NCBI GenBank assembly: GCA_026390735.1
Contig: JAPLFJ010000060.1
Location: forward strand, 1-50,702
Direction: 5' to 3'
Origin: Ignavibacteriota bacterium
GTDB lineage: Bacteria > Bacteroidota > Ignavibacteria > Tepidaquicellales > Tepidaquicellaceae
Length of the DNA stretch: 50,702 bases
Every line of letters begins with the position of its first letter. Within the stretch, counting starts at the first letter, position 1. Position numbers and translations under genes: made by a program. The notes beneath the pieces are model-generated. The model was not told the origin of the DNA, searched no databases, and was given only the letters and a program-made list of their open reading frames with translations. This document shows positions 14,291 to 37,828 of the stretch, piece by piece.

Positions 14291-15235
14291 TCAATAATTT
14301 CTTTTCTCGCTAATATAGAATTCAATTAGTCCTTCAAACATTGATATAAAGCAAATAAATATGAACATATAAGCACTGAAAGTATGTGCCAGAGATCCAA
14401 AACCACCTACAGCACTATCAATGGATGATACAACGTACATATATATAACTGTTACGATAAATATTACTAATGAAAGAATATTCGTCCAATTTAGTTTGTT
14501 TGATATTCTAAGTTTAAGAAAATTCATAATCAGACCAACAATTAAAAGTATAAAGATAACAAGAAACAAAGTGTTCAGAGGACCGTAATCAATTTTTGAT
14601 AATAGTGAATTCTTTTCCGGTGATTTATTGAATGCAAAATCTAATGCGGATAATGAAATACTCTCAGTACCCCCTTTAATGATTATCCATGGAAAGAAGA
14701 AAAGTATAACCATAACAAAATAGAATATTTTCCCCACCCAAGTTTGATTAATTTTTAAACTGAGAACACCCGAATCAGAAAATGATGCAATACCGTAATT
14801 GTTAATCATGTTTGCAATTGCAGGATGTGTCAAGTTTAAAGGATAACTGCCGATATTAATTTTACTGAATGCTGTAATTTTCACTTTTCCTGTAACTTTT
14901 CTTCCATCCACATAAGTACCATTCATTGACCTTAAATCTTCGATGAATACTTCTTCGTTGTCCACGAAGATTTTTGCATGTTTGCTTGAGACACCACCAT
15001 CGTTTATCACAATATCACAATTACTTGCCCGCCCGATTAATACTTCAGAAGCATTTGTATTTACCATGCCAGGTACAGATTGAACAATCATTGTTTTGTT
15101 TGCAGAACTACCGGAACTTGCACCAGAAAAAGACTTTGTGGAAGCTGCTTGTGGTGCACTTTGCCTTCTGGTGCCGCAATTAGCACAGAATGCTGCATTG
15201 GGCTTATTCGCTTGCCCGCATTTTGGACACTGCAT
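14291..15235 (-). CDS. Zinc-ribbon / FHA / four-TM membrane protein
   Basis: A 314-residue protein. Residues 1-22 form a zinc ribbon (Cys 3, 6, 17, 20). A Ser-rich linker carries the motif NKTMIVQSVP with Thr 48. Residues about 65-135 are an FHA domain with the phosphothreonine-binding residues in place: GR 68-69, SSKH 83-86 and NGT 105-107. Four hydrophobic segments follow (about 170-187, 219-240, 252-272, 286-306). The FHA end should face the cytoplasm and dock phosphorylated partners, recruiting them to the membrane. It is the last gene of the kinase operon. Thr 48 is a candidate kinase site. Confidence 0.85.
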   Translation of the reverse strand: MQCPKCGQANKPNAAFCANCGTRRQSAPQAASTKSFSGASSGSSANKTMIVQSVPGMVNTNASEVLIGRASNCDIVINDGGVSSKHAKIFVDNEEVFIEDLRSMNGTYVDGRKVTGKVKITAFSKINIGSYPLNLTHPAIANMINNYGIASFSDSGVLSLKINQTWVGKIFYFVMVILFFFPWIIIKGGTESISLSALDFAFNKSPEKNSLLSKIDYGPLNTLFLVIFILLIVGLIMNFLKLRISNKLNWTNILSLVIFIVTVIYMYVVSSIDSAVGGFGSLAHTFSAYMFIFICFISMFEGLIEFYISEKRNY

Positions 15236-15272
15236 AATTATATTATTTAATTTTATAAAATATTAATTGCAA

Positions 15273-16145
15273 TTAATCACCTTCAAAATTATTTCCGTAA
15301 TTATATGTATCCCTTTTTTCTAATCTTTCCTCTGTAGAAGATATTTTCCATTCGGCGATACCATTATTCTTAACGACCTTTAAATTGAATAAATATGAAT
15401 AGTTAAAAGAAGTAGAACCTTTATCATTGAACTTATAAATATTAACTTTTGCTCTAACGTCATCATTCGGTAATCCAATAACATTTTCATACCAAAAATT
15501 AACTTTTGTAGGGAATCCGCCACGCAATTTTTCATATATCGGGTCTGATTTACCACTTTCCCAATAAGAGGAAGCATTGTACAAAGTTGAAGAACTTTGA
15601 GAAGTGAAAGCATCTGAATATGTTCTTAAATAATTTTCAACATATTCTCTGGAACTCATATTAGGACGGATAACTGAGACATTGAAATTATCACTAAATA
15701 ATGGTTTGTTATCGCTATCTATCAGACTTAATGTATATTGTGAATTTGCGTTTTCATTTGGGGCAATTTTTTTAATGAAAACAATCTTCCCATTTGACTG
15801 TTCAAACATAATTTTCTCTCTGTTTTCACCTACGGCAAAATAATATTCTTTATTCCTTGGTAACTTTGAGGACTCAATTTCTACAATAACGTTTCCTCCA
15901 TTTTTATACAACATTTCATAGAACCCTTTATTTTTGAGTTCTAAACTTCCGTCTGTTGAATATGTTATCTTAAATTTAGGGTCAGCATTGTAAATTGCAA
16001 AATAATATATTAAAGCACCACCTAATGCAATTATTGCAAACAGCAAGAAAATAACAGGGAATTTTGATGCTTTCTTCTGTTGAATTGGCATATTGTTGTA
16101 ATTTTGCTGCGGCATCTGAGTAAATACAGTTTTTTGAGAATCCAT
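15273..16145 (-). CDS. Single-pass receptor-like protein with NTF2-like outer domain, no kinase domain
   Basis: A 290-residue protein: a short cytoplasmic N-terminus with the motif QKTVFTQMPQQNYN (Thr 6), a TM segment at about 30-51, a beta-rich region (about 55-160), and a C-terminal NTF2-like domain (about 165-280) like those ending several kinases here. Its first 50 residues strongly resemble the juxtamembrane part of the kinase at 18838-20259 (DRTVYQAPQQSIGYN, then KK and TM). It looks like such a kinase with the catalytic domain removed. It may be a kinase substrate, an FHA-docking partner or a competing receptor. The function is inferred from architecture only. Confidence 0.7.
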   Translation of the reverse strand: MDSQKTVFTQMPQQNYNNMPIQQKKASKFPVIFLLFAIIALGGALIYYFAIYNADPKFKITYSTDGSLELKNKGFYEMLYKNGGNVIVEIESSKLPRNKEYYFAVGENREKIMFEQSNGKIVFIKKIAPNENANSQYTLSLIDSDNKPLFSDNFNVSVIRPNMSSREYVENYLRTYSDAFTSQSSSTLYNASSYWESGKSDPIYEKLRGGFPTKVNFWYENVIGLPNDDVRAKVNIYKFNDKGSTSFNYSYLFNLKVVKNNGIAEWKISSTEERLEKRDTYNYGNNFEGD

Positions 16146-16168: not shown

Positions 16169-17398
16169 TTAATTGTTTTTAAAAAGTCCCAAACAAAATT
16201 TTAATCTTAGTATTTTTTTAACTGAAATACTTAATTGCTCCTTAAACTTTTCATCTTTGTTGGCATACTCAACAATAGAATTAAGCAGCTTTGCTTCATC
16301 TGTAGGCATTAAGACCATATCACATCCTGATTTTAAAGCCTCTAATGAAGGCCTCTCAAAACTGGTAACACCTTTCATATTCATCGCATCAGTGATTATT
16401 AAACCTTTAAATTTTAATTCTTCTTTTAGCAAATCTGTAATAATATTTCTGCTTATTGTAGAGGGGCGACCACCAGTATTGTATTTTTTACTTCCTTCGA
16501 CAGCTATATGCCCTATCATTACAGATATGACTCCACCACTTATAACTTTTCTGAATGTTTCAATTTCAGAAGGTTCCCCTTTAATCGTTACTAAACCTTT
16601 ATGACTGTCCCCTGATACATTCCCATGGCCAGGGAAGTGTTTTGCGGTTGCTACAACATTATTGTCCTGACTTAATTTAACAAACGCATTCGCCAGAGCA
16701 GAAACAATTTCTGTATTACTTCCAAATGATCTGTCGCCAATAATTTCTTTATTAGTATTAAAATCGCATACAGGAGCAAAATTCTGGTTAAAACCCAGTC
16801 CCTTTATATATTTTGTTATATCCTCGCTTATTTTAATTGCATCCTTTTCAGTTTTAATACTTGAAGTTTTAGGGAAATGAGGTGACCCGGATATTTTCAT
16901 ATTTAACAAACTTGGTTCCGCGTCACAAGAATAAATAGGAGGAATAGAGTTGTTTTTTTTAACAGTTTCAGAAAGTTCTGAGATTTTAGATTTAAACTCT
17001 GAACTGCTACCTTTTAGGAGTAAAACACCACCAATTTCGTTTTTTTGAATAAGTGCGTCAATTACTGAATAAGGTTTTCCGTATTCACCAGCCGCCTGGA
17101 CGATAACTTGTCCCGCTCTTTGCCTATCGTTTAAACTTTTAAAAACAGAATCAACTTTTGAATCAAGAAATTTATTGTTTGAATAAAAATCGCTTAAATT
17201 ATAATTATCTCTCTTTTCGTTACTTTTATCTTGATTCAGCATCGTATTCAGTACTTCTTTAGGAGTACTAATAGTTGTTGAATCTTTCCCTGATTGTTTT
17301 TCACTATTTGGTTTGAATAATATGAATATAAAAACTGATATTATTAGAACTAATACTCCAATCAAAACAAATAATATTTTATCTTTTATTATTTCCAT
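16169..17398 (-). CDS. GH3 family beta-N-acetylhexosaminidase (NagZ-like), membrane-anchored
   Basis: A 409-residue protein with a signal anchor (about 8-29), a linker and a GH3 catalytic barrel. NagZ hallmarks are KHFPGHGN at about 253-260, the Asp-His general-acid loop GDSHKG (Asp 264, His 266) and the nucleophile Asp 337 in LIITDAMNM. The family removes N-acetylglucosamine from muropeptides or related glycans. Classical NagZ is cytosolic; this one should face the periplasm. It overlaps the upstream kinase gene by 10 bases, so the two are translationally coupled. This is a strong hint that wall turnover and kinase signalling are linked. Confidence 0.87.
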   Translation of the reverse strand: MEIIKDKILFVLIGVLVLIISVFIFILFKPNSEKQSGKDSTTISTPKEVLNTMLNQDKSNEKRDNYNLSDFYSNNKFLDSKVDSVFKSLNDRQRAGQVIVQAAGEYGKPYSVIDALIQKNEIGGVLLLKGSSSEFKSKISELSETVKKNNSIPPIYSCDAEPSLLNMKISGSPHFPKTSSIKTEKDAIKISEDITKYIKGLGFNQNFAPVCDFNTNKEIIGDRSFGSNTEIVSALANAFVKLSQDNNVVATAKHFPGHGNVSGDSHKGLVTIKGEPSEIETFRKVISGGVISVMIGHIAVEGSKKYNTGGRPSTISRNIITDLLKEELKFKGLIITDAMNMKGVTSFERPSLEALKSGCDMVLMPTDEAKLLNSIVEYANKDEKFKEQLSISVKKILRLKFCLGLFKNN

Positions 17399-18828
17399 AA
17401 GTTTACATCTATATTAGTAACTTTTATTATTTTCCATTCCGAACCAAATTTATTCAATAGAAAATTCTGTTTAAATGTGCCGTTTTTATTAACCGGGTCA
17501 TACGCGGTATAATCAATATACACGGAAGCATCATAACTGTTTTCATTATTAATTCTGATATTATTAATAACAGTACTTGTAATACCCCCAAAACCTTTGG
17601 AAGAACTAAAATGACTGTATGCGCCCCAGGCTTTATTTCTCTGTCTGTTGTATGCAGATTGAAAATCCCCATTCCCTAAATCAGTGATAAATCCTCTAAC
17701 AACTTGAACCGGGGCACTTTCAGTTTCGGTTTTTTGTGTAGTAGGTTGTGTCTGAGAAGTGTTTGTAGAAGTATTAACCTTAACAGGTGCGCTGTCAACA
17801 ACGACTTTTGAATCATTTCCTTTAAGCACAATAAAAAGCGCGACACCAATACCTATTATTAAAACCGCTAATAAAATAATTATTGTGTTTTTATTACTTC
17901 CCCGGTTTACAACTTGCTGTTGGTTTGACGGGACCGAGTACATAGTTGAATTATAATTTGGTGTATTTGATATTACAGTATTTTGTGATATGGGCGGGGA
18001 ATAAATGTAACTTTTATTGCTTAATGCATTTAAAAATTCAGAACAGGTTGAAAATCTCATATTAGCTTCTTTCGAACAAGCCTTTTGAATTGCAAAAGAT
18101 AAATTGCTGTCTACGTCAGATCGAAACGAACTTAAATTGGGAATTTCAACCTTCATAATATTCTCCATAATTGCATATTCTGTATCTGTTTGAATATTAT
18201 AGGGCAAACTTCTTGTTAACATTTCATAAAGAACAATTCCAAGAGAATATATATCGCTTCTGCTATCAACATCATAACCCATAACCTGTTCAGGGCTCAT
18301 ATAATAAACAGAACCCATTCTTGTTCCCGCTTTAGTCAGGTGCAAATTACTATTAACTAATTTAGCTATTCCAAAATCCAATATTTTAGGTTTATCTCCT
18401 TCTTCAAGTATTATATTGGAAGGTTTTATGTCTCTATGAATTATTCCCTTTTTATGAGCATAATCAAATGCTTCTAATATCTGTTTAAATACATAAACAG
18501 CCCGCTGTGTTTGGAACGGGGAATTAAATTTTTGCATTATATTATCAAGAGTATCTCCCTGTACATATTCCATAACAATGTAAAAACTTCCGTTTTCTTC
18601 AATCAAATCATAAATAGTAATAATATTTGAATGATTTAGTTGGGCAAGAATCATTGCTTCATTTACAAATCTGTCTCTAAAATCTGCATTATTTGTAAAA
18701 TTAGAATGCAGTTGCTTTATAGCAACCGGGCGATTTAAAGTGATATGTTCGCCGTAAAACACAGTTCCCATACCACCTTCGGCTATTTGAGAAATGATTT
18801 TATAATTTTGTATTTTTCTGTTTTCCAT
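17389..18828 (-). CDS. Transmembrane Ser/Thr kinase with NTF2-like outer domain (kinase 1)
   Basis: A 479-residue kinase of the PknB type. Residues 9-270 are the catalytic domain: P-loop IAEGGMGTV, Lys 38 in VAIK, HRDIKPSN at 131-138, DFG at 151-153 and SPEQ at 178-181, all intact. The linker contains SQNTVIS (Thr 284) and NSTMYSVP (Thr 295). A TM segment (about 314-336) is followed by a Thr-rich stalk and an NTF2-like domain (about 375-479). The catalytic part is cytoplasmic and the C-terminal domain outside, so it is a receptor kinase. It belongs with kinases 2 and 6 to the subfamily with A/S-E-G-G-M-G in the P-loop and HITL-R-VAIK. Confidence 0.93.
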   Translation of the reverse strand: MENRKIQNYKIISQIAEGGMGTVFYGEHITLNRPVAIKQLHSNFTNNADFRDRFVNEAMILAQLNHSNIITIYDLIEENGSFYIVMEYVQGDTLDNIMQKFNSPFQTQRAVYVFKQILEAFDYAHKKGIIHRDIKPSNIILEEGDKPKILDFGIAKLVNSNLHLTKAGTRMGSVYYMSPEQVMGYDVDSRSDIYSLGIVLYEMLTRSLPYNIQTDTEYAIMENIMKVEIPNLSSFRSDVDSNLSFAIQKACSKEANMRFSTCSEFLNALSNKSYIYSPPISQNTVISNTPNYNSTMYSVPSNQQQVVNRGSNKNTIIILLAVLIIGIGVALFIVLKGNDSKVVVDSAPVKVNTSTNTSQTQPTTQKTETESAPVQVVRGFITDLGNGDFQSAYNRQRNKAWGAYSHFSSSKGFGGITSTVINNIRINNENSYDASVYIDYTAYDPVNKNGTFKQNFLLNKFGSEWKIIKVTNIDVNLWK

Positions 18829-18837: not shown

Positions 18838-20259
18838 TTACTCGTATTGTTTAAGAAATAATGCATTCTTTCTTTCGACATCACTCAACATATTATCAAC
18901 ATTGTAATATTTAGGTTCATACCACGATTGACCGTTAAAGTGGTTTATCATATCGGGATTAACTTTAAATATATAACCGTGTCTGGCATATATTTCGTTT
19001 TTCATAATTTTTATCTGATATTTACTCAAATTAGAAATATCAGAATATGTCAAGTACTTTGAAGAACCTTCAGGGTAATCACCCGGTATATTAGGGTTTC
19101 TTACTCTTTCTTCTTTTGGAGGTGGGGTTTTCTTGATATCATTTTGAGTATTACTTTGCGAACTATTACTTTGTGAATTCTGAGTGTTTTGAGTTTGAGT
19201 ATTATTATTCACAGAAACTTTATCATTAGAATTATTACCGAAAACAAAGAAAATGATTAAACCCGCAATAATTGTAAGAGCAAATATTCCTGATATTATT
19301 ATAGCACTATTATTAGATTTTTTTATAACCGGGGCATTATATCCAATGCTTTGCTGGGGGGCCTGATATACTGTTCTGTCAAATTGGGCAGGCCTAGGCT
19401 GAGAATTATTATGATTAACAGAATTTGAGCCCTCCTCAAATTTAAAACCACTGTCATTTAATGCTTTTTCGAATTCTTTGCAGGTGGCAAATCTTAAATT
19501 GGGGGCTTTTTGTGTAGCTTTATTTATCACGTTGGAAATGCTTTCCGGAATATCTTTCCTAAACGATGAAATACTTACGGGTATTTGATTGACAATCGCC
19601 TGCATAATTTCAAATTCAGTATCTGTCTTTAAATTGTATGGTATCGAGTTAGTCAATAATTCATACAGTACAATACCGAGAGCATATATGTCGCTTCTAG
19701 TATCAACCAGGTTCCCGGTTACTTGTTCGGGACTCATATAATACAAAGACCCCATTTTTGTTCCTGCCTTAGTAAGGTTTAAATCACTTTGCAAAATCTT
19801 TGCAATACCGAAATCCAAGACCTTTGCGGTATCGTTTTCGTCAAGAATTATATTTGAAGGTTTTATATCTCTGTGTACAATTCCCTTACTGTGTGCATAA
19901 TCAAAAGCTTTAAGTGTTTGAATAAAAATGTTTAAAGCCCTTTGAAGTTGAAAAGGACTTCGCATATTTTTCATAATATTATCCAACGTATCTCCCTGGA
20001 TGTATTCCATAACAATATAAAAATCCGAATTATCTTCGATTAAGTCGTATATTGTAATAATATTGGGGTGGTTTAGCTGAGCGAGAATCATTGCTTCATT
20101 AACAAATCTATCCCTGAATTGCGGATTGTTTGTTAAATTTGAATTCAATTGCTTAATAGCAACAGGCCGGTTTAGGGTTATATGTTCTCCATAATATACT
20201 ACACCCATTCCGCCTTCGGCTATCTGAGAAGTGATTTTGTAATTATTTATTGTTTTCAT
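18838..20259 (-). CDS. Transmembrane Ser/Thr kinase with YARHG outer domain (kinase 2)
   Basis: A 473-residue kinase. The catalytic domain is complete (Lys 36 in VAIK, HRD 129-131, DFG 149-151, SPEQ). The linker has DRTVYQAPQQ with Thr 296, then a TM segment (about 319-340) and a long Asn/Ser/Gln-rich stalk. Residues about 400-473 form a YARHG domain, recognised by YARHGYIF (424-431) and the surrounding aromatic pattern. YARHG domains are extracellular and are thought to bind wall or envelope ligands, so this kinase senses something different from its neighbours. Kinase 1 starts 10 bases downstream. Confidence 0.93.
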   Translation of the reverse strand: MKTINNYKITSQIAEGGMGVVYYGEHITLNRPVAIKQLNSNLTNNPQFRDRFVNEAMILAQLNHPNIITIYDLIEDNSDFYIVMEYIQGDTLDNIMKNMRSPFQLQRALNIFIQTLKAFDYAHSKGIVHRDIKPSNIILDENDTAKVLDFGIAKILQSDLNLTKAGTKMGSLYYMSPEQVTGNLVDTRSDIYALGIVLYELLTNSIPYNLKTDTEFEIMQAIVNQIPVSISSFRKDIPESISNVINKATQKAPNLRFATCKEFEKALNDSGFKFEEGSNSVNHNNSQPRPAQFDRTVYQAPQQSIGYNAPVIKKSNNSAIIISGIFALTIIAGLIIFFVFGNNSNDKVSVNNNTQTQNTQNSQSNSSQSNTQNDIKKTPPPKEERVRNPNIPGDYPEGSSKYLTYSDISNLSKYQIKIMKNEIYARHGYIFKVNPDMINHFNGQSWYEPKYYNVDNMLSDVERKNALFLKQYE

Positions 20260-20271: not shown

Positions 20272-21231
20272 TTATTGCTTTTCTTCAAACCAACGTCTTA
20301 CAACGAATACACTCCCACCATTACCCCATTCATTAACAGGGGTTCTTTTTTGCATTAACTTAGACAAAACAGAGACTAAATCCTTTTTAACAACACAACC
20401 AGCACTAAACGAACTTTCAATCGTGGTTTCATTGTCATAAATTAATATAACGTGTCCCTTCCATACTATAATATCAAGCGGTTTAACTGTTTTCGCAATT
20501 TGCTTTGCAGACAAACCTTCAATATTTACACTTTCGCCCATATAAACCATTTGATGCGTATTACGTGCAGTAAAACCATTTGTTGCTTCATAGATTAATC
20601 CAGAACAATCTACACCTTTTAATTCCCACTCTTTTGATTCTTTATTACCCAAGTCCCCCTTTGGAGGATAGAAATCAAACATTTCTTTTACGCCATCAAT
20701 GTTGTTAGCACCCCATACATATAAAGAGCCAACACTTTTATCCAGATAGTCATATATTTTACTCTTAGACGGTACATCTATCTTACGTTTTTCCGGTTTT
20801 TGGTAAGTTATCTCAACAAATCTGGAATCAATAAATAATTCAATATCTAACTCAGAAATGTCATATTCATCGGTATATATTTTGTAAATTGAATAATTAT
20901 CTTTTTTATACTCATCCAGAATTTCAAATATTGAACCAGGATAAGCGACGTATTCAAGCTCTTTGATTAAACCATTTTTACTCCTTTTTAAGGATTTACC
21001 ATCTTTACCACCATACACAGATGAAAAATTCTTAGTATTTATAACAGGAGTAAAATATTTTGATACGGCATATTTTTTCCCATCTGATTTTAATGTGTCT
21101 TTCTTTACCTTGGTATTTTCTTTGGTCTCTTGCTTTTTGGGTGTTTCCCGAATTTCATTTTTAGATTCTTTGCAAGAGGTAATACTTGCAATAGAAATAA
21201 TGAGCGTAAAAATTAAGATTAATGTTTTCAT
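20272..21231 (-). CDS. Lipoprotein NlpC/P60 peptidase with SH3-like domain
   Basis: A 319-residue lipoprotein (lipobox ending at Cys 20, IASITSC). A Lys/Glu-rich linker leads to an SH3-like region (about 85-145), then the catalytic domain: YVWGANN (about 171-177), GVDCSGL with the nucleophile Cys 209, GHVILI with His 260, and TTIES as the likely third site. NlpC/P60 enzymes cut peptidoglycan stem peptides, usually between D-Glu and the diamino acid. It sits between kinases 3 and 2 with gaps of 1 and 12 bases, so its expression is tied to theirs. Confidence 0.87.
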   Translation of the reverse strand: MKTLILIFTLIISIASITSCKESKNEIRETPKKQETKENTKVKKDTLKSDGKKYAVSKYFTPVINTKNFSSVYGGKDGKSLKRSKNGLIKELEYVAYPGSIFEILDEYKKDNYSIYKIYTDEYDISELDIELFIDSRFVEITYQKPEKRKIDVPSKSKIYDYLDKSVGSLYVWGANNIDGVKEMFDFYPPKGDLGNKESKEWELKGVDCSGLIYEATNGFTARNTHQMVYMGESVNIEGLSAKQIAKTVKPLDIIVWKGHVILIYDNETTIESSFSAGCVVKKDLVSVLSKLMQKRTPVNEWGNGGSVFVVRRWFEEKQ

Positions 21232-21232
21232 G

Positions 21233-22711
21233 TTAGTCTCCTGCTACTGTTGAATAAATAAGTTCTTCGTAAGTTATCTTTATAATACCGTTTGAATCCT
21301 TTTTCAATCTCAATATTTTATGCCCTTCGTCGCTATATTGAGCACTTGAATAAAATTGCCTGAAGCTGACTTCTGCAGTATTATCTGACGTTATTTTTGT
21401 CTTTAAATCTGTATAGGTTATTGATAAAGCTGTTGCTTTGTTATACATTGTGGTTCTATTATTGATCCAATCTGAATACCCATAATTAGTTGTTTTTCCT
21501 GATTTTGTTCTTTTTATTCCGTAAAATGAAGGATCATACATTGAAGCATAATCCGATAATTGTTTGTTTGTTTGGATTGATGCCCAGGTTTTAACAAAGA
21601 TTTCGCATTCATTTTCTGTAATTTTGGAAGCTGTATTAGTTTTTGTATTCCCCGAAGAAGTTTGTTCGTTTGATTTTGTTGTAATAATATTGTTGTTAGA
21701 GTCCGAATCATCTTTATTGAGGAAATAGATAAATCCCGCTACAAGAATTATAATAATATATGCACCTGCAATATAAATAACATTATTATTCTTTTTAACA
21801 TCAGGCTGAACATTATTATTAATATTCTGATACACAGTTTGATTACTTTTCAATTGTGGTTGAATAATCGTTTTTGATGATGGTAAGCTTGTATACTGTC
21901 CATCTATAGCATCAATAAACTCCTCACAAGAATTATATCTGTCGTAAGGGTTTTTTGCGGTTGCCTTCCCAATTAGAATATCATAATTATCATTTAATCC
22001 TTGATTAAAAGCCTTAACCGATGGTAATGTATCCTGAACAATTTTATGCTGTATTTCATACTCACTTTTATTATCCAGATCGTAGGGGGTTTTGCCAGTA
22101 AGCATTTCGAAATAAGTAACTCCTAAGGAATAAATATCGCTTCGATGGTCCACATCTTTTCCAAGGACCTGTTCCGGGCTCATATATGCAACTGAGCCCA
22201 TCCTTGTACCCGTTTTTGTTAGTTTTTTATCCCCCTCAATTATTTTAGCAATCCCAAAATCAAGTATTTTAGGAGTGTCATCGAACTGCAATATTATATT
22301 TGACGGTTTAATGTCTCTATGTACGATACCTTTAGTATGCGCATAAGCAAATCCAGTAAGAATTTGCTTAAATATCTTATTGCATCTAACTTCCGGAATC
22401 GCGCCAATGTCATTTGTGATAAGATCATCAAGAGGTTTACCTTCAACAAATTCCATTATTAAAAATAAATTGGTCCCAATATCCGCAAAATCAAAAAGAG
22501 TAACAATGTTTGTGTGGTTAAGTTTAGAAAGAGTTATAGCTTCATTTATAAATCTTTCCCGAATATCATTATCACCCGTTAAAACAGGATTCAGAACTTT
22601 AATGGCTACTTTCCTATTCAGTTTTTCGTGAACACCAAGGTAAACAGTGCCCATTCCCCCTTCACCAATTTTTTTATTAATTTTATAACTTAAAACAGTT
22701 TCGCCTATCAT
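21233..22711 (-). CDS. Transmembrane Ser/Thr kinase with Cds6-like outer domain (kinase 3)
   Basis: A 492-residue kinase. P-loop IGEGGMGTV, Lys 38 in VAIK, HRD 131-133, DFG 151-153 and SPEQ are intact. The linker has two threonine motifs, SKTIIQP (Thr 281) and NQTVYQN (Thr 292). A TM segment lies at about 311-330. The outer part (about 365-492) is an NTF2-like domain of the Cds6/L,D-transpeptidase-associated kind, with a pattern of VKTWASI, FYGIKRTKSG and YSDWINNR. It belongs to the second kinase subfamily here (MIG start, IGEGGMG). One base separates it from the NlpC/P60 gene. Confidence 0.92.
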   Translation of the reverse strand: MIGETVLSYKINKKIGEGGMGTVYLGVHEKLNRKVAIKVLNPVLTGDNDIRERFINEAITLSKLNHTNIVTLFDFADIGTNLFLIMEFVEGKPLDDLITNDIGAIPEVRCNKIFKQILTGFAYAHTKGIVHRDIKPSNIILQFDDTPKILDFGIAKIIEGDKKLTKTGTRMGSVAYMSPEQVLGKDVDHRSDIYSLGVTYFEMLTGKTPYDLDNKSEYEIQHKIVQDTLPSVKAFNQGLNDNYDILIGKATAKNPYDRYNSCEEFIDAIDGQYTSLPSSKTIIQPQLKSNQTVYQNINNNVQPDVKKNNNVIYIAGAYIIIILVAGFIYFLNKDDSDSNNNIITTKSNEQTSSGNTKTNTASKITENECEIFVKTWASIQTNKQLSDYASMYDPSFYGIKRTKSGKTTNYGYSDWINNRTTMYNKATALSITYTDLKTKITSDNTAEVSFRQFYSSAQYSDEGHKILRLKKDSNGIIKITYEELIYSTVAGD

Positions 22712-30339: not shown

Positions 30340-31704
30340 TTATTCAAAAGTTACATTCTTTCTTGGTTTTTGAACCGGTGGCGGAGCCACATTATTATTA
30401 CCTGTATTGCTACTTCCACTAGTATTTCTTTTCTTATAATAATTATTAGGTGCTTTCTCGATTTGCTTTTGCTCAACTTTCTCTTCACTTACAGGTTCTA
30501 ATTCTTTTTTCACTTCTTTAGTATTTAAAGAGTCTTTATTTATTTCAGTTTTTGGTATTTCAACTATTTTATTATTGTTTAGTGAAATAATAAACCAAAC
30601 CAATGCTGCGAAAATGATAAAACCAGCAGATATGAATATTGCAGAATAAGAGCCTTTCTTAGCTTCTTCCTTTGGTTTCGCCCTGTAAATTTCAGTCTTT
30701 TGAGAATTTATTCTCGGGATAGGACTTTTCTCAGGGAAACTGTTTCTTGGGACTTCATTTTTAAAGCCGTCAATATCTTTTTGCCATGAATCTTTTCCCT
30801 CAACCTGAGCATAATTCTGATCCGGCTGGATTTCCCTTGCCGAATTAAGAGGATTCACATATTCCCGTTTTATATTCGATTTAAAATAAACATCATCCAT
30901 TGCCAATGCAAATTCTTCACATGTTTGAAACCTTTCCTCAGGTAATTTGGAGGTTGCTGTTGCTATAACATTTTCCATATGTCTGGAAACAGCAGGGTAA
31001 ATATCACTTGCTAAAGGCAGAGGTTCTGATATTATCTTAGTTTGTATTGTGTAATCGCTCAGTGTATTTAAATCATATACTCTTTTACCTGTAAGCATTT
31101 CAAAAAGTGTAATACCAAGTGAATATATATCAGAACGTATATCAACATCATTCCCCCTCACTTGTTCAGGGCTCATATACAATACAGTACCGACTTTATC
31201 ACCTGCTTTTGTTAATGCGCGATTGGAGGTTAGCATTTTAGCAATTCCAAAATCTAAAATCTTTGGTGTATAATCAGGCTTTAGTATAATGTTTGAAGGC
31301 TTAATATCTCTGTGTATAACTCCTTTGGAATGTGCAAAGCTAAACCCGGATAATATTTGCTTGAATATTGTGAGTGTTAAATTTTCATGAATTGGTCCAT
31401 TAACTCTTTCAATGAAATGGTCTAACGGATGTCCTTCCACATATTCTAAAACCAGAAATAATTCATCTCCCAGGTCTGCGAAATCATAAAGGGCCACAAT
31501 ATTATTATGATTCAGTTGTGCCAATGTATAACCTTCGTTTAAAAAACGCTTTTTAACTTCTATATCCTTTGCAAAGACAGGATTTAAGAACTTGATAGCA
31601 GCTTTTCTATGCAACGTAATATGCTCACCCAAGTATACATACCCCATACCGCCCTCGCCTATTTTTGAAAGTATACTGTAATTTTGTACTACTCTGCCTA
31701 TCAT
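30340..31704 (-). CDS. Transmembrane Ser/Thr kinase with short outer tail (kinase 7)
   Basis: A 454-residue kinase with P-loop IGEGGMGYV, Lys 38 (AAIK), HRD 131-133, DFG 151-153 and SPEQ. It differs from the other six in the activation loop: AGDKVGTVLYM replaces TGxKMGSxxYM. The long linker has SQKTEIYRAKP (Thr 337). After the TM segment (about 353-375) there are only about 80 residues of Glu/Lys- and Pro-rich sequence ending near PPPVQKPRK, with no folded sensor domain. It is the first kinase of the operon, nearest to PP2C and the FHA genes, so it may be the core kinase served by the others. Confidence 0.92.
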   Translation of the reverse strand: MIGRVVQNYSILSKIGEGGMGYVYLGEHITLHRKAAIKFLNPVFAKDIEVKKRFLNEGYTLAQLNHNNIVALYDFADLGDELFLVLEYVEGHPLDHFIERVNGPIHENLTLTIFKQILSGFSFAHSKGVIHRDIKPSNIILKPDYTPKILDFGIAKMLTSNRALTKAGDKVGTVLYMSPEQVRGNDVDIRSDIYSLGITLFEMLTGKRVYDLNTLSDYTIQTKIISEPLPLASDIYPAVSRHMENVIATATSKLPEERFQTCEEFALAMDDVYFKSNIKREYVNPLNSAREIQPDQNYAQVEGKDSWQKDIDGFKNEVPRNSFPEKSPIPRINSQKTEIYRAKPKEEAKKGSYSAIFISAGFIIFAALVWFIISLNNNKIVEIPKTEINKDSLNTKEVKKELEPVSEEKVEQKQIEKAPNNYYKKRNTSGSSNTGNNNVAPPPVQKPRKNVTFE

Positions 31705-31719: not shown

Positions 31720-32979
31720 TTAATTATATTTATAAAATACTGTTTCACTGTTACCAATTTTTATAACATCTCTGTCTTTTAAAATAGCAGTATTGATTCT
31801 ACCTCTATTGAGTAATGTCCCGTTTTTAGAGAATAAATCTGTCAAATAGAAGAATCCATTTGTTTTGGTTATCTTGCAATGTTTTTTAGATATGAATATA
31901 TCATCAGCTATTACAACATCACAATCGAAATCCCTGCCTATGTATGTTTCTGTTTTACTTAGCGGATAGTTCCTTCCATTATAGTACAAGACGCTCTTAA
32001 TGTTTAGTTCTCTGTTATTATTAATATATTGTTTGTTCGAATGTAACTTATGTCCAATGTTTTCTTGTACTACCGGCTGAGTAACCGGTTGATACAAAAA
32101 GTTTTTCTGCTTTTTATTTGAATTCGATATAGCGAATACTATTAAGACGAATATTGAACCAAATAATACAAAAATGATTAAGACAGAATTGTTGTTTTTA
32201 GAATTCACAATTCGTGTTGTCAGGACAGTATCATTTTTGAACTTTGGAATCAGATTACTTATTCCAGAATTATTTATAGAATCTTTATTCTTTGCAGAAT
32301 CTTTAGTTAAATCAGAAGGGTTATTAGAATTATATTTTATTGAATATTTTTTTAAAACAGATACCAGCTCAGAAACATGAATGGCAATAAATTGATTATT
32401 TCCTTTAGGGTAATAATATGAATTTATACCAATAAGTTCGCCTTTTGAATTAAGCAATGGACCTCCGCTATTACCTTTGTTTAAAGTTGCTGAATGCAGT
32501 ATAATATGTGCAGATATTGGGTATTCAGGAGATGGTATTTCTTCATTAGTAATATTATTAATTATACCTTCAGTAAAAGTAAATTTATAGACATTAAAAT
32601 TAGAAGTGGGGTTGCCAATTGCAAACACTTTATCTCCGATTTTCGGACCTGATTCATTTGCCAAAATTAAATAATTTGAAACAGGTTCAGTTTCATATGC
32701 TGCCAGGTCATTACTTTTATCCTCGAACAGTTTTTTTACAAGCTTAATTTTAGACCCGTCTTTCAGCTTTATTAATGTATTTGAAAAATTTAATTCAATT
32801 GAAACGTGCCTGTTAGTTACAAAGGTTGTACTATTTACAAAAAAGCCGCTACCAATTCCTCTCATATCAGAAATTAAACCAACAGAGCTAACCGCTTTTT
32901 CGTATACTTTTTCGGCATCCTGGGAATAAGAAAACAACGTATATCCAAACAACAAATATATAAAAAATAGTTTTTTCAA
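31720..32979 (-). CDS. Trypsin-like serine protease joined through a TM segment to an FHA domain
   Basis: A 419-residue protein. A signal peptide (about 1-20) is followed by a trypsin/HtrA-like protease domain with a complete triad: His 58 in TNRHV, Asp 91 in SNDLAAY and Ser 171 in NKGNSGGP. A TM segment lies at about 266-286. The C-terminal part (about 340-415) is an FHA domain with GRD at 348-350, SKKH at 364-367 and KNGT at 385-388. The protease should be in the periplasm and the FHA domain in the cytoplasm. This layout could pass phosphorylation state across the membrane to a protease, or the reverse. Confidence 0.87.
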   Translation of the reverse strand: MKKLFFIYLLFGYTLFSYSQDAEKVYEKAVSSVGLISDMRGIGSGFFVNSTTFVTNRHVSIELNFSNTLIKLKDGSKIKLVKKLFEDKSNDLAAYETEPVSNYLILANESGPKIGDKVFAIGNPTSNFNVYKFTFTEGIINNITNEEIPSPEYPISAHIILHSATLNKGNSGGPLLNSKGELIGINSYYYPKGNNQFIAIHVSELVSVLKKYSIKYNSNNPSDLTKDSAKNKDSINNSGISNLIPKFKNDTVLTTRIVNSKNNNSVLIIFVLFGSIFVLIVFAISNSNKKQKNFLYQPVTQPVVQENIGHKLHSNKQYINNNRELNIKSVLYYNGRNYPLSKTETYIGRDFDCDVVIADDIFISKKHCKITKTNGFFYLTDLFSKNGTLLNRGRINTAILKDRDVIKIGNSETVFYKYN

Positions 32980-34040
32980 TTTCCGACTTCGCTTTTATTC
33001 TTAATTTCCTCTAAAAACTTCCTTGCAAGAGATTGTATTTTATCATTGCAAGATTCGTCAATCAAGTCATAATATGATTTTGCTTTACTGAATATGCTTA
33101 TTTGTCGATAAGTATTTCCCAGCATTAGGATAGTTCTGCAATAATTTTTACCCTTTGGCACTTCCCCATTTTCATCTGTTAAATAATTCTTCATATTAAT
33201 TTCGAAGCCTTTTTCATCAAACCTCATAATACAATAAATATTATAAAGAGAATAGGCAGCCATATATTTTACATCATCTAGAATGGAATCCTTGTAGCAA
33301 TAATTTTCTAAAAAATCGTTAGACTGCTCATTAACTGTATTATTGTCTTCATAGTTGTTATCATTCATATTCATATAAATATTATGAGTAATGCCATAAA
33401 GACAAAGCGAATAATTTTTTAAGAATACTGAATCTCTGTTACCTAAATCATACGATTTCTTGAAGTAATCCAACTGCAGAGTCTTTGAGGAATCATTTAA
33501 ATACGCTAGAATTTCATAGTATAAACAATTATCAAAATGACCTAAATCTTCAACTCGTTGCTCAAATCTTCCTTTATACTCTTTATTTATCTTATTCTGA
33601 CTCTCAAACTCTTTTTTCGCATTATATAAAAACAGAGATGAAAATAGTCTATCTGGCTCAGTAGGATTTAAATTTTCAAAAGAACTTATACTTAACTTTT
33701 GGTTTTTTTCAAAATACACTGTATCACCAATATTGTGTGATACAAATCTCATAATCACTAAATATTTTTTGGGTAAATTACTTTTAATTGTATCTATATG
33801 ATCCGAATAGTAGTTTATTTTATTAACTTTTGTATAAACTGTGTTCATTAGTATGTTAATATCTACAATTTTATTAGATTCAAATATAAAATTAACAAAC
33901 TTATTAAACTTGTTGTCGTTATACTTATATTCCGGAATTAGGCTGAAATTTATATAATTTACTTTTGCATCCTGTGAATAAATAATTTGCGACTTTAGCA
34001 GAAATAAACACATTACCAAAAAAACTAAAACACATTTCAT
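32976..34040 (-). CDS. Secreted TPR-like protein
   Basis: From the ATG at 34040 the protein has about 354 residues and a signal peptide (MKCVLVFLVMCLFLL..., ending about YSQ). An upstream in-frame ATG at 34070 would overlap the phosphatase gene and precede the signal peptide by ten residues, so the later start is preferred. The mature part is helical and Asn/Tyr-rich with TPR-like spacing, including LGNTYRQISIFSKAKSYYDLI near the end, in two blocks. It probably acts as a periplasmic scaffold for the proteins of this operon. No enzyme motifs are seen. It overlaps the protease-FHA gene by four bases. Confidence 0.65.
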   Translation of the reverse strand: MKCVLVFLVMCLFLLKSQIIYSQDAKVNYINFSLIPEYKYNDNKFNKFVNFIFESNKIVDINILMNTVYTKVNKINYYSDHIDTIKSNLPKKYLVIMRFVSHNIGDTVYFEKNQKLSISSFENLNPTEPDRLFSSLFLYNAKKEFESQNKINKEYKGRFEQRVEDLGHFDNCLYYEILAYLNDSSKTLQLDYFKKSYDLGNRDSVFLKNYSLCLYGITHNIYMNMNDNNYEDNNTVNEQSNDFLENYCYKDSILDDVKYMAAYSLYNIYCIMRFDEKGFEINMKNYLTDENGEVPKGKNYCRTILMLGNTYRQISIFSKAKSYYDLIDESCNDKIQSLARKFLEEIKNKSEVGN

Positions 34041-34047
34041 TAAATTG

Positions 34048-35577
34048 TCAATTTTTAGGGTTGTCACCATTATTTTCCTTATTTTTAATATTTGATGGAT
34101 TATTTATTTTAGTTTCATCATTCGGCAATTTAGTTTTTGATGATTCTTTTTTCTCGTGTATTTGATTTTTGTCTTTTTTATCCTTTTCCTTAACCGACTT
34201 ATCCTTAATTTCTATATTATTTTTTGCGATTTCAGTTTTGACGATTATTTCATTTACTTTAAATTTATTATTAGTTATTATAACTCCTGTGATAATGAAA
34301 TCATTTTTTTCCTCCCCAATTATAATCTTAAATTTATAATCTGAGCCCAATGTATCTAATGGAGGGTCAAATCTGATTATATTATTTGTTTTCACAAAAC
34401 TTTTTAAATTGTCTAAATTATAGATATTTGGTTGATCATTACGGAATATAAAATTAAAATTGCTATAGTCAATTGATATTTCGGTTGTATCGGTAAATTT
34501 TGAATTCAATGATTTTGATAAGTCTGCGATAATTCTGTATTTGTTTACATTTATAGATTTTAAGGATACCTCATTTGTTTTTTTGTTTTCACCATTAATT
34601 TTCCAATATACCAATCCTGCAAATATTAATATCAATGCTACTAACAACACATACAGCATTGTTTTATTCTTCTTTTTTGACTGAAGGTTATTAAATGACG
34701 GGATTTCCGCTGTTTTATCGAATGAATGCGGCTTAAAGGGGTTCTGCTGAAGTACATTTGCTTTTTTGTCCAACGCTCCAAGAGGAACAACTTCTTCTTT
34801 TCCTTTAGGTATTGATATTCCTTTTACAACTTTTACAACCTGAACCGTTATATTATCGAATCCTCCGTTATTGTTTGCTGTAGCTAATAATTTTAAAGAG
34901 GCTTCCTGAGGGTCGTTTGTGTTTACTATTCTTTGAATGTCTTCGTCAGTTATTAGCCCGCTTAATCCGTCACTGCACATTATAAATGTGTCGTTTTTGT
35001 ATAAATTCAGGCCAATATTGTTGACGTCTACTTTTATTTCCGAAGTAATACCTAATGCCTGCATAATTTCATTCTTTCTCGGATGATGCTCTGCCTCTTC
35101 ATAAGATATCAACCCTCCGTCAACGAGTGTTTGCACGAATGAATGATCTCTCGTCATTTGATATATCTTTGAATTTCTAATCATATACATTCTTGAATCA
35201 CCAACGTGTGCATAGTAGGCTATGTTAGTTTTCACTATTAATACTACTGCAGTTGTACCCATGCCTTTTAATTCGGGTTCATCCGTCCATTTCTCTATTA
35301 TTCTATGATTAGCGAGATTTACAGAATCTATTATTATTTGCTTTGTATTTGTTACTCCCTGCGGATTGTTTAATATATTCTCCTTAATAGTTGCAACAGC
35401 CAGTCTTGATGCTACTTCACCTGCAGTGTGACCTCCCATACCGTCACAAACGACAAATACGTATCCAAAAGGAGACTCAAAACTTTCGAGATAGTCTTCA
35501 TTCTTTTGCCTGACCTTACCTACATCTGTTCCATTTCCTATATCAATAGAAAAATCATTTGTTATATCAATAATCAT
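34048..35577 (-). CDS. PP2C-family Ser/Thr phosphatase with TM anchor (PstP-like)
   Basis: A 509-residue protein. Residues about 10-250 are a PP2C domain with all metal-binding motifs: Asp 45 in CDGMGGH, GDSR at 126-129, CSDGLSGL at 201-208 and GGFDNIT at 238-244. A linker has DKTAEIPSF (Thr 289), similar to the threonine motif of the kinases. A TM segment (about 306-326) leads to an outer domain of about 180 residues with a beta part and a Lys/Asn-rich tail. Its job is to remove phosphate from the kinases and their partners. It is the only phosphatase seen beside seven kinases. Confidence 0.92.
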   Translation of the reverse strand: MIIDITNDFSIDIGNGTDVGKVRQKNEDYLESFESPFGYVFVVCDGMGGHTAGEVASRLAVATIKENILNNPQGVTNTKQIIIDSVNLANHRIIEKWTDEPELKGMGTTAVVLIVKTNIAYYAHVGDSRMYMIRNSKIYQMTRDHSFVQTLVDGGLISYEEAEHHPRKNEIMQALGITSEIKVDVNNIGLNLYKNDTFIMCSDGLSGLITDEDIQRIVNTNDPQEASLKLLATANNNGGFDNITVQVVKVVKGISIPKGKEEVVPLGALDKKANVLQQNPFKPHSFDKTAEIPSFNNLQSKKKNKTMLYVLLVALILIFAGLVYWKINGENKKTNEVSLKSINVNKYRIIADLSKSLNSKFTDTTEISIDYSNFNFIFRNDQPNIYNLDNLKSFVKTNNIIRFDPPLDTLGSDYKFKIIIGEEKNDFIITGVIITNNKFKVNEIIVKTEIAKNNIEIKDKSVKEKDKKDKNQIHEKKESSKTKLPNDETKINNPSNIKNKENNGDNPKN

Positions 35578-35588: not shown

Positions 35589-37193
35589 TTAGATTTTAAA
35601 TGTAAGTGAAACATTTCCTAAACGGACAGTGTCATTATTGCTTAATACAGAGCTCGTTATTCTTTTTTCATTAACAAAAGTTCCGTTTGTTGACCCTAAA
35701 TCTTCAATATAAAACTGACCGTTGGTCATCAGTATTCTTGCGTGCATCCTTGATATGGTTGAGTCCTGTAGTACAATATCCCCCTGCTGTCTTCCAATAC
35801 TTGCACCCATAGGCGATACTGTGAATGTCTGACCCGTATACGAACCACTGTTTACGCATAAGGACGCCTGCCCTGAACCGACGTTCATTGATGGCGATGA
35901 CTTCGAACTTAAAATCATTGTTCTTCTCCTGTAATCAATATTAGGAGTCACTCCTATCATTGTTTTTGAAGCATCCTGTATTTTGTTTTCCAATTCAGAT
36001 ATTCTCATTTTATCAGAATCCGTAATAACGCTCGCGTTTTCTAACTGGTCAAGAAGATTATCGTATTCTTTTTGAATTGCTCCAAACCTTTCTTCGTTAA
36101 TCCTGGCTTCTTCTTCCCTGAGCATTTGTTCCTGTTCTTTTTCAGCTTTATATCTTTTCTTTTTATTAATATTAATAACTAAAAATACGCTTAAAGCAAT
36201 TAAAATTACTCCGCCGCCAATTGATCCGTACAAAAATTCTTTTGTTTCCCAGAAACTTACTGCAGGCGCATTCTTTATTATTTTAGCTGGTGATTTATAC
36301 TCGAAATCTCTTTTGTAAGTGGTTTCCCCGACTTTAACAAGTATCTCCCCTTTTACATCTGTACTAACGGGTGCATAACTGAAATAAGTCAAAACATACT
36401 CGTCTTTAATCCTGTCATAAATTAACGGAATTATGTTTTTCATATCTTCAGGTGTATTAATCTTGTAATACTTCCCATCTTTTGTGGATGCAGCTATCTT
36501 TTCAATGTTTATTAATGTGTTCCTGCTTGCCCTGTTATCAGCGACAGTTCCTATTGAGAACACAGATATTCCTGAATTTTCAAGTCCTTTAATGCAATCA
36601 CCGATTTTTATGTCCGTACCGTTGTCATCTCCATCACTTAATAGTATCATCACTTTTCTTTTAGGAGATTCAACAGATTTAAGCCACTTTGTTGCTTCGT
36701 TTACACTCAGAAATATCTCGGATGATGACCCACCTGTAGTTAAGTCATTAATATTATTTCTCAAGATTTCTCTATCAGTTTCAAAGCCGGTTTTCTTTAA
36801 AAATTTATCATTAAAAATACTAATTGCCATCTTATCCTGAGGTCTCATTTCAGGTAATATATGCAATATCCCTTCTTTTATATTATTAAGCGGTGCACCG
36901 TCCATTGAATTTGATGCATCTATTACAAAACAAATAACCATCCCTTCGTCTGACTTGAAGAAATTTTTCATGAATGGAGAAACTTTTTTGTCGGTGTTTT
37001 TTTCGACAATTGTTATACGGGTTGAATCAATATCATTAATAGCTTTCCCGTTCGTATCTAAAATATTCAGGTATAACTTGATTTGTTGAAATTCAGTATA
37101 ATCAATATCCCTCAGGTTAAGACTAATAGTACTTTGTGAATAGATATTAGCTGACACGAATAATAATCCTATAAGAAAAATAAGTTTTTTCAT
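35589..37193 (-). CDS. Secreted VWA domain joined through a TM segment to a coiled coil and FHA domain
   Basis: A 534-residue protein: signal peptide (about 1-19), beta region, VWA domain (about 84-265) with the MIDAS motif DASNS at 92-96, a TM segment (about 322-343), a Glu-rich coiled coil (about 347-410), then two threonine motifs (SKTMIG, Thr 411; RRTMILSS, Thr 425) and an FHA domain (about 445-534; GR 467-468, H 484, NGT 503-505). VWA binds metal-bridged ligands in the periplasm; FHA reads phosphothreonine inside. Like the protease-FHA protein, it couples an outside domain to an inside FHA. Confidence 0.9.
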   Translation of the reverse strand: MKKLIFLIGLLFVSANIYSQSTISLNLRDIDYTEFQQIKLYLNILDTNGKAINDIDSTRITIVEKNTDKKVSPFMKNFFKSDEGMVICFVIDASNSMDGAPLNNIKEGILHILPEMRPQDKMAISIFNDKFLKKTGFETDREILRNNINDLTTGGSSSEIFLSVNEATKWLKSVESPKRKVMILLSDGDDNGTDIKIGDCIKGLENSGISVFSIGTVADNRASRNTLINIEKIAASTKDGKYYKINTPEDMKNIIPLIYDRIKDEYVLTYFSYAPVSTDVKGEILVKVGETTYKRDFEYKSPAKIIKNAPAVSFWETKEFLYGSIGGGVILIALSVFLVININKKKRYKAEKEQEQMLREEEARINEERFGAIQKEYDNLLDQLENASVITDSDKMRISELENKIQDASKTMIGVTPNIDYRRRTMILSSKSSPSMNVGSGQASLCVNSGSYTGQTFTVSPMGASIGRQQGDIVLQDSTISRMHARILMTNGQFYIEDLGSTNGTFVNEKRITSSVLSNNDTVRLGNVSLTFKI

Positions 37194-37213
37194 ATTAATT
37201 TATGATTGTTAAA

Positions 37214-37828
37214 TTAAACAGTTCTGAATTTTAATTCCGTTTTACCAACTTTAATAATATCCCCATCTTTTATAGTGGCTTCGTCAATTGCTTCGCCATT
37301 AAGAAAGGTTCCGTTTGTGGAAAGCTCATCTTTGATTTTTATTGTTCCGGCTCTGTACAAAACCATACAATGAGGAGTTGAAACGGAAGGATCGTTAATT
37401 TTAATATCGCCTTCATCTGAATTGCTTATCAAATTTCTACCCTCATAAATCTTATAATCTTCTCCTTCGGGTTTCCATGTAAATGAAATCAGCCATCCGA
37501 CAATCTTTCTTCCTGCTTTAGGGGGTGCAGCAGAATCAGCACTGACAATAACTGTTTTATTGCCAATACCTTTACCAACGCCTCCCATAATTGAAGTCTT
37601 ATCTCCTTTGCTTCCAAATGTAGCTGTAGAATCCCCCTGATTGAAATTATTCATTCCAACTTTCATTTTTAAATCGGGAGTAGGACAGAAAGGACATTTT
37701 GATAAATTTGAGCTATAGATATGCCCATTAGGGCAAACTCTTGTTGATTCTTTCATGAGCTGGGAGCCGCATGAAATACAAAACTTTGAGTTTTGCTCAT
37801 TGTCAGTGTTACAAATTTTACAAATCAT
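37214..37828 (-). CDS. Zinc-ribbon FHA adaptor protein, first gene of the kinase operon
   Basis: A 204-residue soluble protein. Two zinc-binding clusters are visible: Cys 3, 6, 17, 20, and Cys 32, His 36, Cys 45, Cys 48. The linker has DKTSIMG (Thr 78) and NKTVIVS (Thr 92), then an FHA domain (about 125-204) with the STNGT motif at 170-174; its first motif is GRNLISN. Domain order and Thr-bearing linker resemble mycobacterial GarA/FhaB-type regulators, in which a phosphorylated N-terminal Thr binds the FHA domain of the same or another protein. It heads the operon and has no TM segment. Confidence 0.88.
   Translation of the reverse strand: MICKICNTDNEQNSKFCISCGSQLMKESTRVCPNGHIYSSNLSKCPFCPTPDLKMKVGMNNFNQGDSTATFGSKGDKTSIMGGVGKGIGNKTVIVSADSAAPPKAGRKIVGWLISFTWKPEGEDYKIYEGRNLISNSDEGDIKINDPSVSTPHCMVLYRAGTIKIKDELSTNGTFLNGEAIDEATIKDGDIIKVGKTELKFRTV

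Follow-up and report, generated by a model that had tools for sequence, protein, structure and literature searches.

How signal specificity is kept or shared in bacteria with many receptor kinases is an open question. The question bears on a locus on contig JAPLFJ010000060.1 (C11; 50,702 bp) of an Ignavibacteriota bacterium (assembly GCA_026390735.1, 4.02 Mb in 69 contigs, 97% complete); the whole contig was analysed and is referred to here as the window. Nineteen minus-strand open reading frames (ORFs) in this window encode, among others, seven receptor kinases (K1 to K7), one PP2C phosphatase and four proteins with FHA domains. We propose that the locus probably encodes a self-tagging phosphothreonine network, in which a short threonine motif shared by the sensors and their partners would be read by FHA domains and reset by the PP2C, with the cell envelope as the site of output. 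Sensors, eraser, readers and a candidate common tag all lie in one locus and minimal versions occur in other phyla, and a few purified proteins would therefore suffice to test the idea of shared readers.

Kinases, phosphatase and FHA proteins

The run of 19 ORFs extends from position 37828 down to 14291, with spacings of -23 to +37 bp. A Pfam scan of the run gave seven Pkinase matches (E 1.5e-54 to 1.7e-59), one match each for PP2C, GH3 and an M99/AspA-type peptidase, four FHA domains, two DUF4352 matches (one below the cut-off), and a Trypsin_2 and a VWA domain that are each fused to an FHA. An earlier note on this DNA had listed 19 minus-strand genes with small gaps or overlaps, among them seven intact kinases each with a transmembrane (TM) segment, one PP2C and four FHA proteins, and Pfam, hydropathy and motif checks bear this out. 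Its single phosphatase holds for the locus but not for the genome, in which one of two PP2C_2 matches lies in this window.

All seven kinases keep the catalytic Lys, HRDxKPxN and DFG, and the motif check found intact catalytic motifs also in the PP2C, GH3, NlpC-like, M99, trypsin, VWA, M48 and ABC proteins described below. As judged by hydropathy, each kinase has one TM segment between its kinase domain and its C-terminal part. These outer parts differ. K6 (18838-20259) carries a YARHG domain and K4 (23568-25037) an NTF2-like (SnoaL_3) domain, while the NTF2-like (Cds6_C) match of K5 (21233-22711) fell below the Pfam cut-off. No family was recognised in the ectodomains of K2 (26533-27915), K3 (25059-26525, a small ectodomain) and K7 (17389-18828), and the outer part of K1 (30340-31704) is a short charged tail without a recognised domain. 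PASTA gave no match in any of the seven kinases at E 0.001. An AlphaFold model of the K3 ectodomain, helices followed by strands, was too weak to name a fold (mean pLDDT 52.4), and an NTF2-like fold for K3, K7 and the kinase-less membrane partner described below was an impression only, Pfam supporting K4 and, below the cut-off, K5. The host genome has 12 kinase matches, seven of them in this locus.

The phosphatase (34048-35577, minus strand) combines a PP2C domain with a TM segment and an extracytoplasmic tail that is fast-evolving according to its alignment, which was too divergent for folding. It scored above the cut-off of the Stp1/IreP equivalog NF033484 of NCBIfam (259.1 bits against 230), and its metal-binding motifs DGMGG, GDSR, SDGL and GGFDN are present.

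With regard to the readers, the alignment shows that the binding residues Arg, Ser, His and Asn are kept in six of the seven FHA domains of the window. The six intact domains belong to a VWA-TM-FHA protein (35589-37193), with an extracytoplasmic VWA carrying the MIDAS residues and a cytoplasmic FHA, to an HtrA/trypsin-like protease-TM-FHA protein (31720-32979) in which the His, Asp and Ser motifs are present, to the multi-TM zinc-ribbon-FHA-B protein (14291-15235) and, three of them, to an ABCG-like exporter encoded divergently (39782-42301, plus strand). The seventh domain lies in zinc-ribbon-FHA-A (204 aa, 37214-37828), the product of the first gene of the run, which reads ISN instead of IGR. 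Among the aligned rows of this protein, the four of Ignavibacteria type have all lost the Arg, as have 6 of the 11 from Cloacimonadota. As zinc-ribbon-FHA-A itself has the candidate tag (KTVIV at residue 92), its role may be to serve as an adaptor bearing that tag, and not to read tags.

Relatives of the locus were counted within genome samples. The named ones are Ignavibacteria (G037 = JAFGII010000072.1), in rough agreement with the Bacteroidota-type host inferred in the earlier note, and one Cloacimonadota contig (L057); a Chloroflexi contig (L058, with no PP2C seen in its 16 kb) and an Acidobacteria contig (L060) are looser relatives. FHA domains are concentrated at these loci: seven of the nine in the host genome lie in the window, and those lying with the locus make up 6/6 in G037, 3/5 in G006 and 3/4 in G008. 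Four genus mates without a VWA-FHA match have 0, 1, 0 and 0 FHA domains.

A candidate phosphothreonine tag in the cytoplasmic linkers

The pattern T-[VIM]-[VILMYF] was counted in the linkers between folded cytoplasmic domains and membrane segments, where it is spread over unrelated proteins, namely kinases, FHA proteins and a kinase-less membrane partner (15273-16145, minus strand) made up of a 30-aa cytoplasmic tail, a TM segment and an extracytoplasmic part. In the kinases it reads KTIIS (K2), KTIIQ (K4), KTIIQ and QTVYQ (K5), RTVYQ (K6), and NTVIS and STMYS (K7). The VWA-TM-FHA protein has KTMIG at residue 411 and RTMIL at 425, zinc-ribbon-FHA-B has KTMIV ahead of its FHA, and the tail of the kinase-less partner contains KTVFTQMP. 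The commonest surroundings in the pooled set are D-[KR]-T-[VM]-I, often with Pro at +5.

In the window the tag occurs 12 times against 1.19 expected in 779 residues (9 of 13 linkers; none of 5000 shuffles scored as high), a circular test inasmuch as the pattern was first noticed by eye in these same sequences. The Ser version of the pattern was not enriched (3 against 2.89 expected). With the pattern fixed, G037, G006 and G008 together gave 14 tags against 2.39 expected (11/20 linkers), G413 gave 5 against 0.45 (3/4 linkers), and L057, L058 and L060 gave 6 against 1.27 (4/11 linkers). The Cloacimonadota loci, which were fetched after the pattern had been fixed, contained 27 tags against 3.20 expected in 20 of 28 linkers, and among their FHA/VWA linkers 20 of 21 were tagged. 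Ten residues were tried at the first position of the pooled set and only Thr was strongly enriched (64 against 8.1, 7.9-fold); Ser reached 0.47-fold (6 against 12.8) and the eight others 0.32- to 1.40-fold. FHA domains favour phosphothreonine over phosphoserine, and a Thr-only tag fits this preference.

Conservation within single proteins points to the same residues. In the VWA-TM-FHA linker R424, T425 and I427 are invariant in five sequences, and in the tail of the kinase-less partner nothing beyond Met1 is invariant across three orthologues except K5-T6; the orthologue from G008 reads KTSY and lies outside the strict pattern.

For comparison with kinases outside the system, we took the best-scoring kinases of the class for which loci were given, with no random draw; 4 of the 28 control loci had no nearby TM segment. 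Kinases without a downstream TM, kinases cut by contig ends and linkers of 12 aa or less were dropped before counting, and these drops also removed the FHA-kinase and two FHA proteins of L058. G226, a near copy of G413, was omitted from the tag tests. When the tag was required to be preceded by K, R, D, N or Q, the system kinases had 10 occurrences against 0.51 expected (7/15 linkers) and the control kinases had none in 23 linkers. A Fisher test gave p 0.0013 for 10/15 system kinases against 3/23 controls, and p 0.008 when the Cloacimonadota kinases were added (10/19); linker length is not matched in this test, as it is in the shuffles. The third G037 kinase (L112) was excluded from the stricter control because its genome carries the system; with it, the unrestricted pattern counted 6 against 1.65 expected in 4 of 24 linkers. 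A full-length VWA-FHA had no match in the 23 control genomes (14 identified by handle numbers in the phylum sample, 9 checked separately). The only match in that separate check, in G444, spans no more than the VWA part, and the G444 kinase had already been dropped as lacking a TM segment.

From these patterns we read the tag as a probable phosphothreonine label that would let many sensors recruit shared FHA readers. This agrees with what the earlier note had suggested, several sensors with one local phosphatase and shared FHA readers, and adds a tag common to the kinases and the FHA proteins.

A small core conserved across phyla

Full-length VWA-TM-FHA proteins were found in 4 of 44 genomes of the order (the host, G006, G008 and G037), and in 4 of 395 genomes of the phylum sample (the host, G037, G226 and G413); a VWA-FHA protein was found in 12 of 124 Cloacimonadota genomes. 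Nine genomes matched in the search of the order, the five others aligning partly and mainly over the VWA region, and there was no match in four genus mates. A single-sequence VWA-FHA search found nothing; an alignment-based search recovered the relatives. In the VWA-FHA tree the window and its family mate G037 group together with support of 88/78, which is not strong. Vertical descent with losses is possible, and we make no claim of horizontal transfer.

In the 12 Cloacimonadota loci, several of which are cut by contig ends, a zinc-ribbon-FHA gene is adjacent in 11 and a PP2C gene in 11, whereas M48 and FHA-ABC genes are each nearby in 7 and a kinase in 4. In L058 and L060, too, an FHA-ABC gene lies close to the core. 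The form in G413 and G226 is small and consists of zinc-ribbon-FHA, VWA-FHA, PP2C and kinase, with a two-FHA ABC gene on another contig. The G037 locus includes GH3, a DUF4352-type protein, two kinases and YARHG as a separate protein with a signal-like N-terminus. The G008 locus has four full kinases and one cut, two DUF4352-type proteins and the kinase-less partner. GH3, M99 and NlpC-like proteins were not seen in the Cloacimonadota loci, L058 or L060 with hidden Markov models (HMMs) built from the window's single proteins. Apart from partial sets in the nearest relatives, the window was the only place where several kinases and the wall hydrolases were seen.

Judged by these gene neighbours, as counted in Cloacimonadota and the other relatives, the conserved core is zinc-ribbon-FHA, VWA-TM-FHA and PP2C, often accompanied by the exporter arm (M48, FHA-ABC) or by a kinase. 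To this core the hydrolases and the long array of kinases seem to have been added, and the host genome carries the largest version of the system among the loci compared. The neighbourhood search does not support the 19-gene set of the earlier note as a conserved unit; the run itself stands, and the divergent FHA-ABC/M48/LEA_2 arm (38535-42301) had been left out of that note. We count these divergent genes as part of the system because in G037 the M48, LEA_2 and FHA-ABC genes share the strand of the run and sit within it, flanked by the PP2C region and the protease-FHA gene.

The arm comprises, on the plus strand, an M48 metalloprotease (38535-39284; LoiP/BepA-like, below the equivalog cut-offs), whose counterparts adjoin the PP2C in several relatives, a LEA_2 protein with a hydrophobic N-terminal segment (39299-39769), and the exporter, in which Pfam finds three FHA domains N-terminal to ABC_tran and ABC2_membrane, an Rv1747-like layout. 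The FHA domains are closely spaced (about residues 1-75, 101-173 and 201-263), and a long linker is absent. Walker A, signature and Walker B motifs are present, the best solved relatives of the ATPase part include CDR1 and ABCG2, and the G037 orthologue is 61% identical; the tag motif was not found in the exporter sequence. Five one-TM proteins at the LEA_2 position in Cloacimonadota had no Pfam match and were not counted as LEA_2.

History of the kinases

In a tree of 52 kinase domains, including 27 other kinases of the class, a supported set of 13 rows (97/92) holds the seven window kinases, the two G037 locus kinases, two of the four from G008, a kinase on contig C2 of the host genome and the third G037 kinase, and none of the 27 other class kinases. 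Within it K2, K3, K6 and K7 group as a local expansion (97/91); the kinase domains of K6 and K7 share 68% identity. According to whole-genome searches, the locus contig carries all five kinase matches of G008, the only one of G006 and two of the three of G037. Tandem arrays occur elsewhere in the class, as in G163 (C2, 41.7-57.6 kb), where seven listed kinase matches lie in about 16 kb; G163 is not among the phylum-sample genomes with a VWA-FHA match. We therefore rejected kinase number as a mark of uniqueness.

Further kinases were noted beside these. The C2 kinase that groups with the locus kinases belongs to a satellite pair (G000:C2:15231-21517; L050, L053) with a zinc-ribbon-FHA-TM protein. 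A second kinase region of the host genome (G000:C68:88.8-101.5 kb; L051) encodes an FHA-kinase, a PP2C lacking a TM segment, and two more kinases, one of 1649 aa and the other with a large outer part. One G008 locus kinase (L045:215-1681) has yet another type of outer part, in which a Cys-rich stretch is followed by a terminal DUF805 membrane domain.

Proposed mechanism and alternatives

In the network that we favour, the seven receptor kinases would sense envelope conditions through their different outer parts and whatever ligands these may bind. Envelope sensing had also been proposed in the earlier note and is suggested by the domain types. Active kinases would phosphorylate the tag, [KR]-T-[V/M/I]-I/Y/F, both on themselves, in the juxtamembrane linkers of most of them, and on other proteins, in the FHA protein linkers and the cytoplasmic tail of the kinase-less partner. 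The six intact FHA domains would bind the tagged proteins, so that kinases, protease, VWA protein and exporter might gather at the inner membrane, and the membrane PP2C would strip the phosphates and reset the state. A membrane cluster is a reasonable model because clustering has been described for Rv1747, PknF and PstP and for PpkA and Fha (see below). The output would be envelope remodelling via the FHA-ABC exporter, the two proteases (HtrA-like and M48) and the wall hydrolases encoded alongside, as suggested by the exported VWA, the proteases, the exporter and three genes of wall-hydrolase type. We put forward more tentatively, and regard as somewhat less than an even prospect, a wider version: a cross-phylum envelope machine in which a single short phosphothreonine tag, having spread by copying to unrelated membrane proteins, serves as an address label, FHA proteins assemble the tagged kinases, proteases, VWA protein and ABCG-like exporter into one membrane cluster, and lineages add sensor kinases with new outer parts.

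Several observations weigh against the network. Besides the circularity of the window count, some G037 and G413 sequences had already been read before the pattern was fixed, and the unrestricted pattern is mildly raised in control kinases as well (4 against 1.43 expected, equalled in 263 of 5000 shuffles). The tag is missing from the linkers of Cloacimonadota kinases (0/2, and 0/2 in L057), of the PP2C in the Cloacimonadota loci (0/5) and of the protease-FHA (0/3 in relatives, and the window's own), and from the VWA-FHA linkers of L058 and L060. The strict tag is absent from the linkers of K1 (which has KTEIY) and K3, and from those of the C2 FHA protein and C2 kinase of the host genome. Zinc-ribbon-FHA-A lacks the Arg that contacts phosphothreonine, the rest of its FHA signature being kept, and FHA-ABC was not found in G006 and G008, both fragmented assemblies. 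In the kinase tree the set of the window kinases leaves out two of the four from G008, the pair from G413 and those from Cloacimonadota, tandem kinase arrays exist in genomes where VWA-FHA was not found, and the system is rare among the genomes sampled.

Some of these points would also be expected if the kinases were independent products of tandem duplication with substrates of their own, the FHA genes mere neighbours and the tag a generic site of autophosphorylation or activation. The local expansion of K2, K3, K6 and K7, the array in G163 and the mildly raised pattern in control kinases all fit such an explanation. We nevertheless consider it unlikely, as the tag is strongest in proteins that are not kinases (the Cloacimonadota FHA/VWA linkers) and is present in the kinase-less partner, the FHA/VWA/PP2C order recurs across phyla even without an adjacent kinase, and most FHA domains of these genomes sit at the locus. 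A different proposal overlaps with the favoured network and departs from it in the output, which would mainly be the FHA-ABCG-like exporter with M48 and LEA_2, in the manner of export control by Rv1747 and PknF, the hydrolases being bystanders. FHA-ABC and M48 genes each lie near the core in more than half of the Cloacimonadota loci and in G037, FHA-ABC also in L058 and L060, and the single-protein HMMs detected no GH3, M99 or NlpC-like protein in those loci. Against this, no FHA-ABC was detected in G006 and G008, which retain the core (and, in G008, several kinases), indicating that the exporter is not needed for the core, and the FHA-ABC of G413 and G226 is on another contig; exporter control as the main output is a real possibility to which we would give rather less than half of our belief. 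That the locus is the regulatory cassette of a secretion or conflict system, either like T6SS PpkA-PppA-Fha or a VWA-PP2C-kinase conflict module, appears very improbable. The parts are the same (kinase, PP2C, FHA and VWA), and a kinase-PP2C-vWA linkage is described for actinobacterial GAP1-N2 systems (PMC7159879), but scans of 40 window proteins listed neither MoxR nor STAND, and the VWA and several partners are exported or membrane-bound as judged by hydropathy. A link to T6SS was rejected on the sheath gene alone (VipB, PF05943), which had no match in the 97% complete genome; other T6SS genes were not searched.

Comparison with known systems

The mycobacterial pknA-pknB-pstP-fhaA-fhaB locus encodes kinases, a PP2C and FHA proteins together and has a presumed role in the cell wall. 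The present locus resembles it in bringing these three kinds of protein together, but none of its seven kinases matches PASTA, no rodA or pbpA was found among the 40 window proteins scanned, and the FHA architectures differ. These differences support the earlier suggestion of an enlarged phosphosignalling system unlike the mycobacterial one. In the T6SS PpkA-PppA-Fha pathway, of which PppA is the PP2C part, the logic of kinase, PP2C and FHA is alike; the VWA is fused to FHA here and the genome has no sheath match. The PpkA-Fha pair is reported as forming condensates (PMC12607579).

The PknF-Rv1747 pair of Mycobacterium tuberculosis shares with the present system a Hanks kinase, a PP2C and FHA domains N-terminal to an ABC exporter, the Rv1747-type layout of N-terminal FHA followed by nucleotide-binding domain (NBD) and ABC-2 membrane domain in one chain being the same. 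The exporter here has three FHA domains rather than two, is ABCG-like by its solved matches and lacks the tag, and the locus adds VWA-FHA, zinc-ribbon-FHA, M48, LEA_2 and seven kinases. Condensation of the FHA part of Rv1747 is described in a review as driven by PknF phosphorylation and reversed by PstP (PMC9312465). The FHA-ABC exporter theme is hereby extended from Mycobacterium to loci of Ignavibacteria, Cloacimonadota, Chloroflexi and Acidobacteria.

The GAP1-N2 conflict systems likewise have kinase, PP2C and vWA genes side by side; as described there (PMC7159879), this linkage is confined to actinobacteria and the vWA is standalone, whereas the vWA here is exported and fused to FHA. K6 has the kinase-TM-YARHG layout of YARHG-domain kinases and differs in being one of seven kinases in a locus with shared readers; peptidoglycan has been proposed, not demonstrated, as the ligand of this domain (PMC3355149). 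Each of the parts is already known, and so is the theme of FHA-ABC with a kinase from Mycobacterium. Searches of an open-access library, judged by titles and opening lines and leaving most subscription papers uncovered, listed no description of the gene set; PMC7159879 was nearest in content. As far as these searches reached, neither the Thr tag common to these proteins nor the core shared across phyla has been described.

Remaining genes of the window

The earlier note had also listed wall enzymes and tetratricopeptide (TPR) proteins. Of the enzymes, the GH3 and the M14-type peptidase, here M99/AspA-type, are supported by Pfam, and the NlpC/P60 is a weak match with its motifs present. The GH3 protein (16169-17398) has an N-terminal TM segment and NagZ/YbbD/LpqI-type proteins as its nearest solved structures, and is below the NCBIfam equivalog cut-off. 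About 75 residues of the zinc carboxypeptidase (22718-23557) match PDB chains 4wck and 4q6m, and the NlpC/P60-like protein (20272-21231; E 0.021, below the cut-off) contains DCSGL and GHV. The TPR proteins reduce to one TPR-like match in DUF4352-like protein (a) (29408-30331), in which both matches are below the cut-offs; DUF4352 protein (b) lies at 27917-29404. A 364-aa exported-type protein (32976-34070) has a hydrophobic N-terminal segment and no Pfam family over the cut-off. All these genes are on the minus strand. The AlphaFold model of the kinase-less partner was too weak to name a fold (mean pLDDT 61.5), and its Foldseek matches (RhoGDI-, SoxYZ-, TRAP-like and others; query TM-scores 0.14-0.26) were not used.

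A single transcript for the 19-gene run is plausible. Terminator-like sites on the minus strand within the run all lie inside ORFs, none in gaps. A Bacteroidota-type promoter pattern had 12 matches against 6.2 expected, graded as chance level, and the minus strand had no match ahead of the first gene; because the promoter-like matches are at chance level, the single transcript is something we infer. Downstream of the operon lies a WG-repeat protein with 13 matched repeats (11601-13529), with a match to the promoter pattern just upstream (13563-13591). Two MBOAT acyltransferase genes (306-3121 and 8345-11521) flank an amino-acid permease, and each adjoins GDSL-like or DUF459-like genes, both below the Pfam cut-off; these regions perhaps serve surface-polymer acylation.

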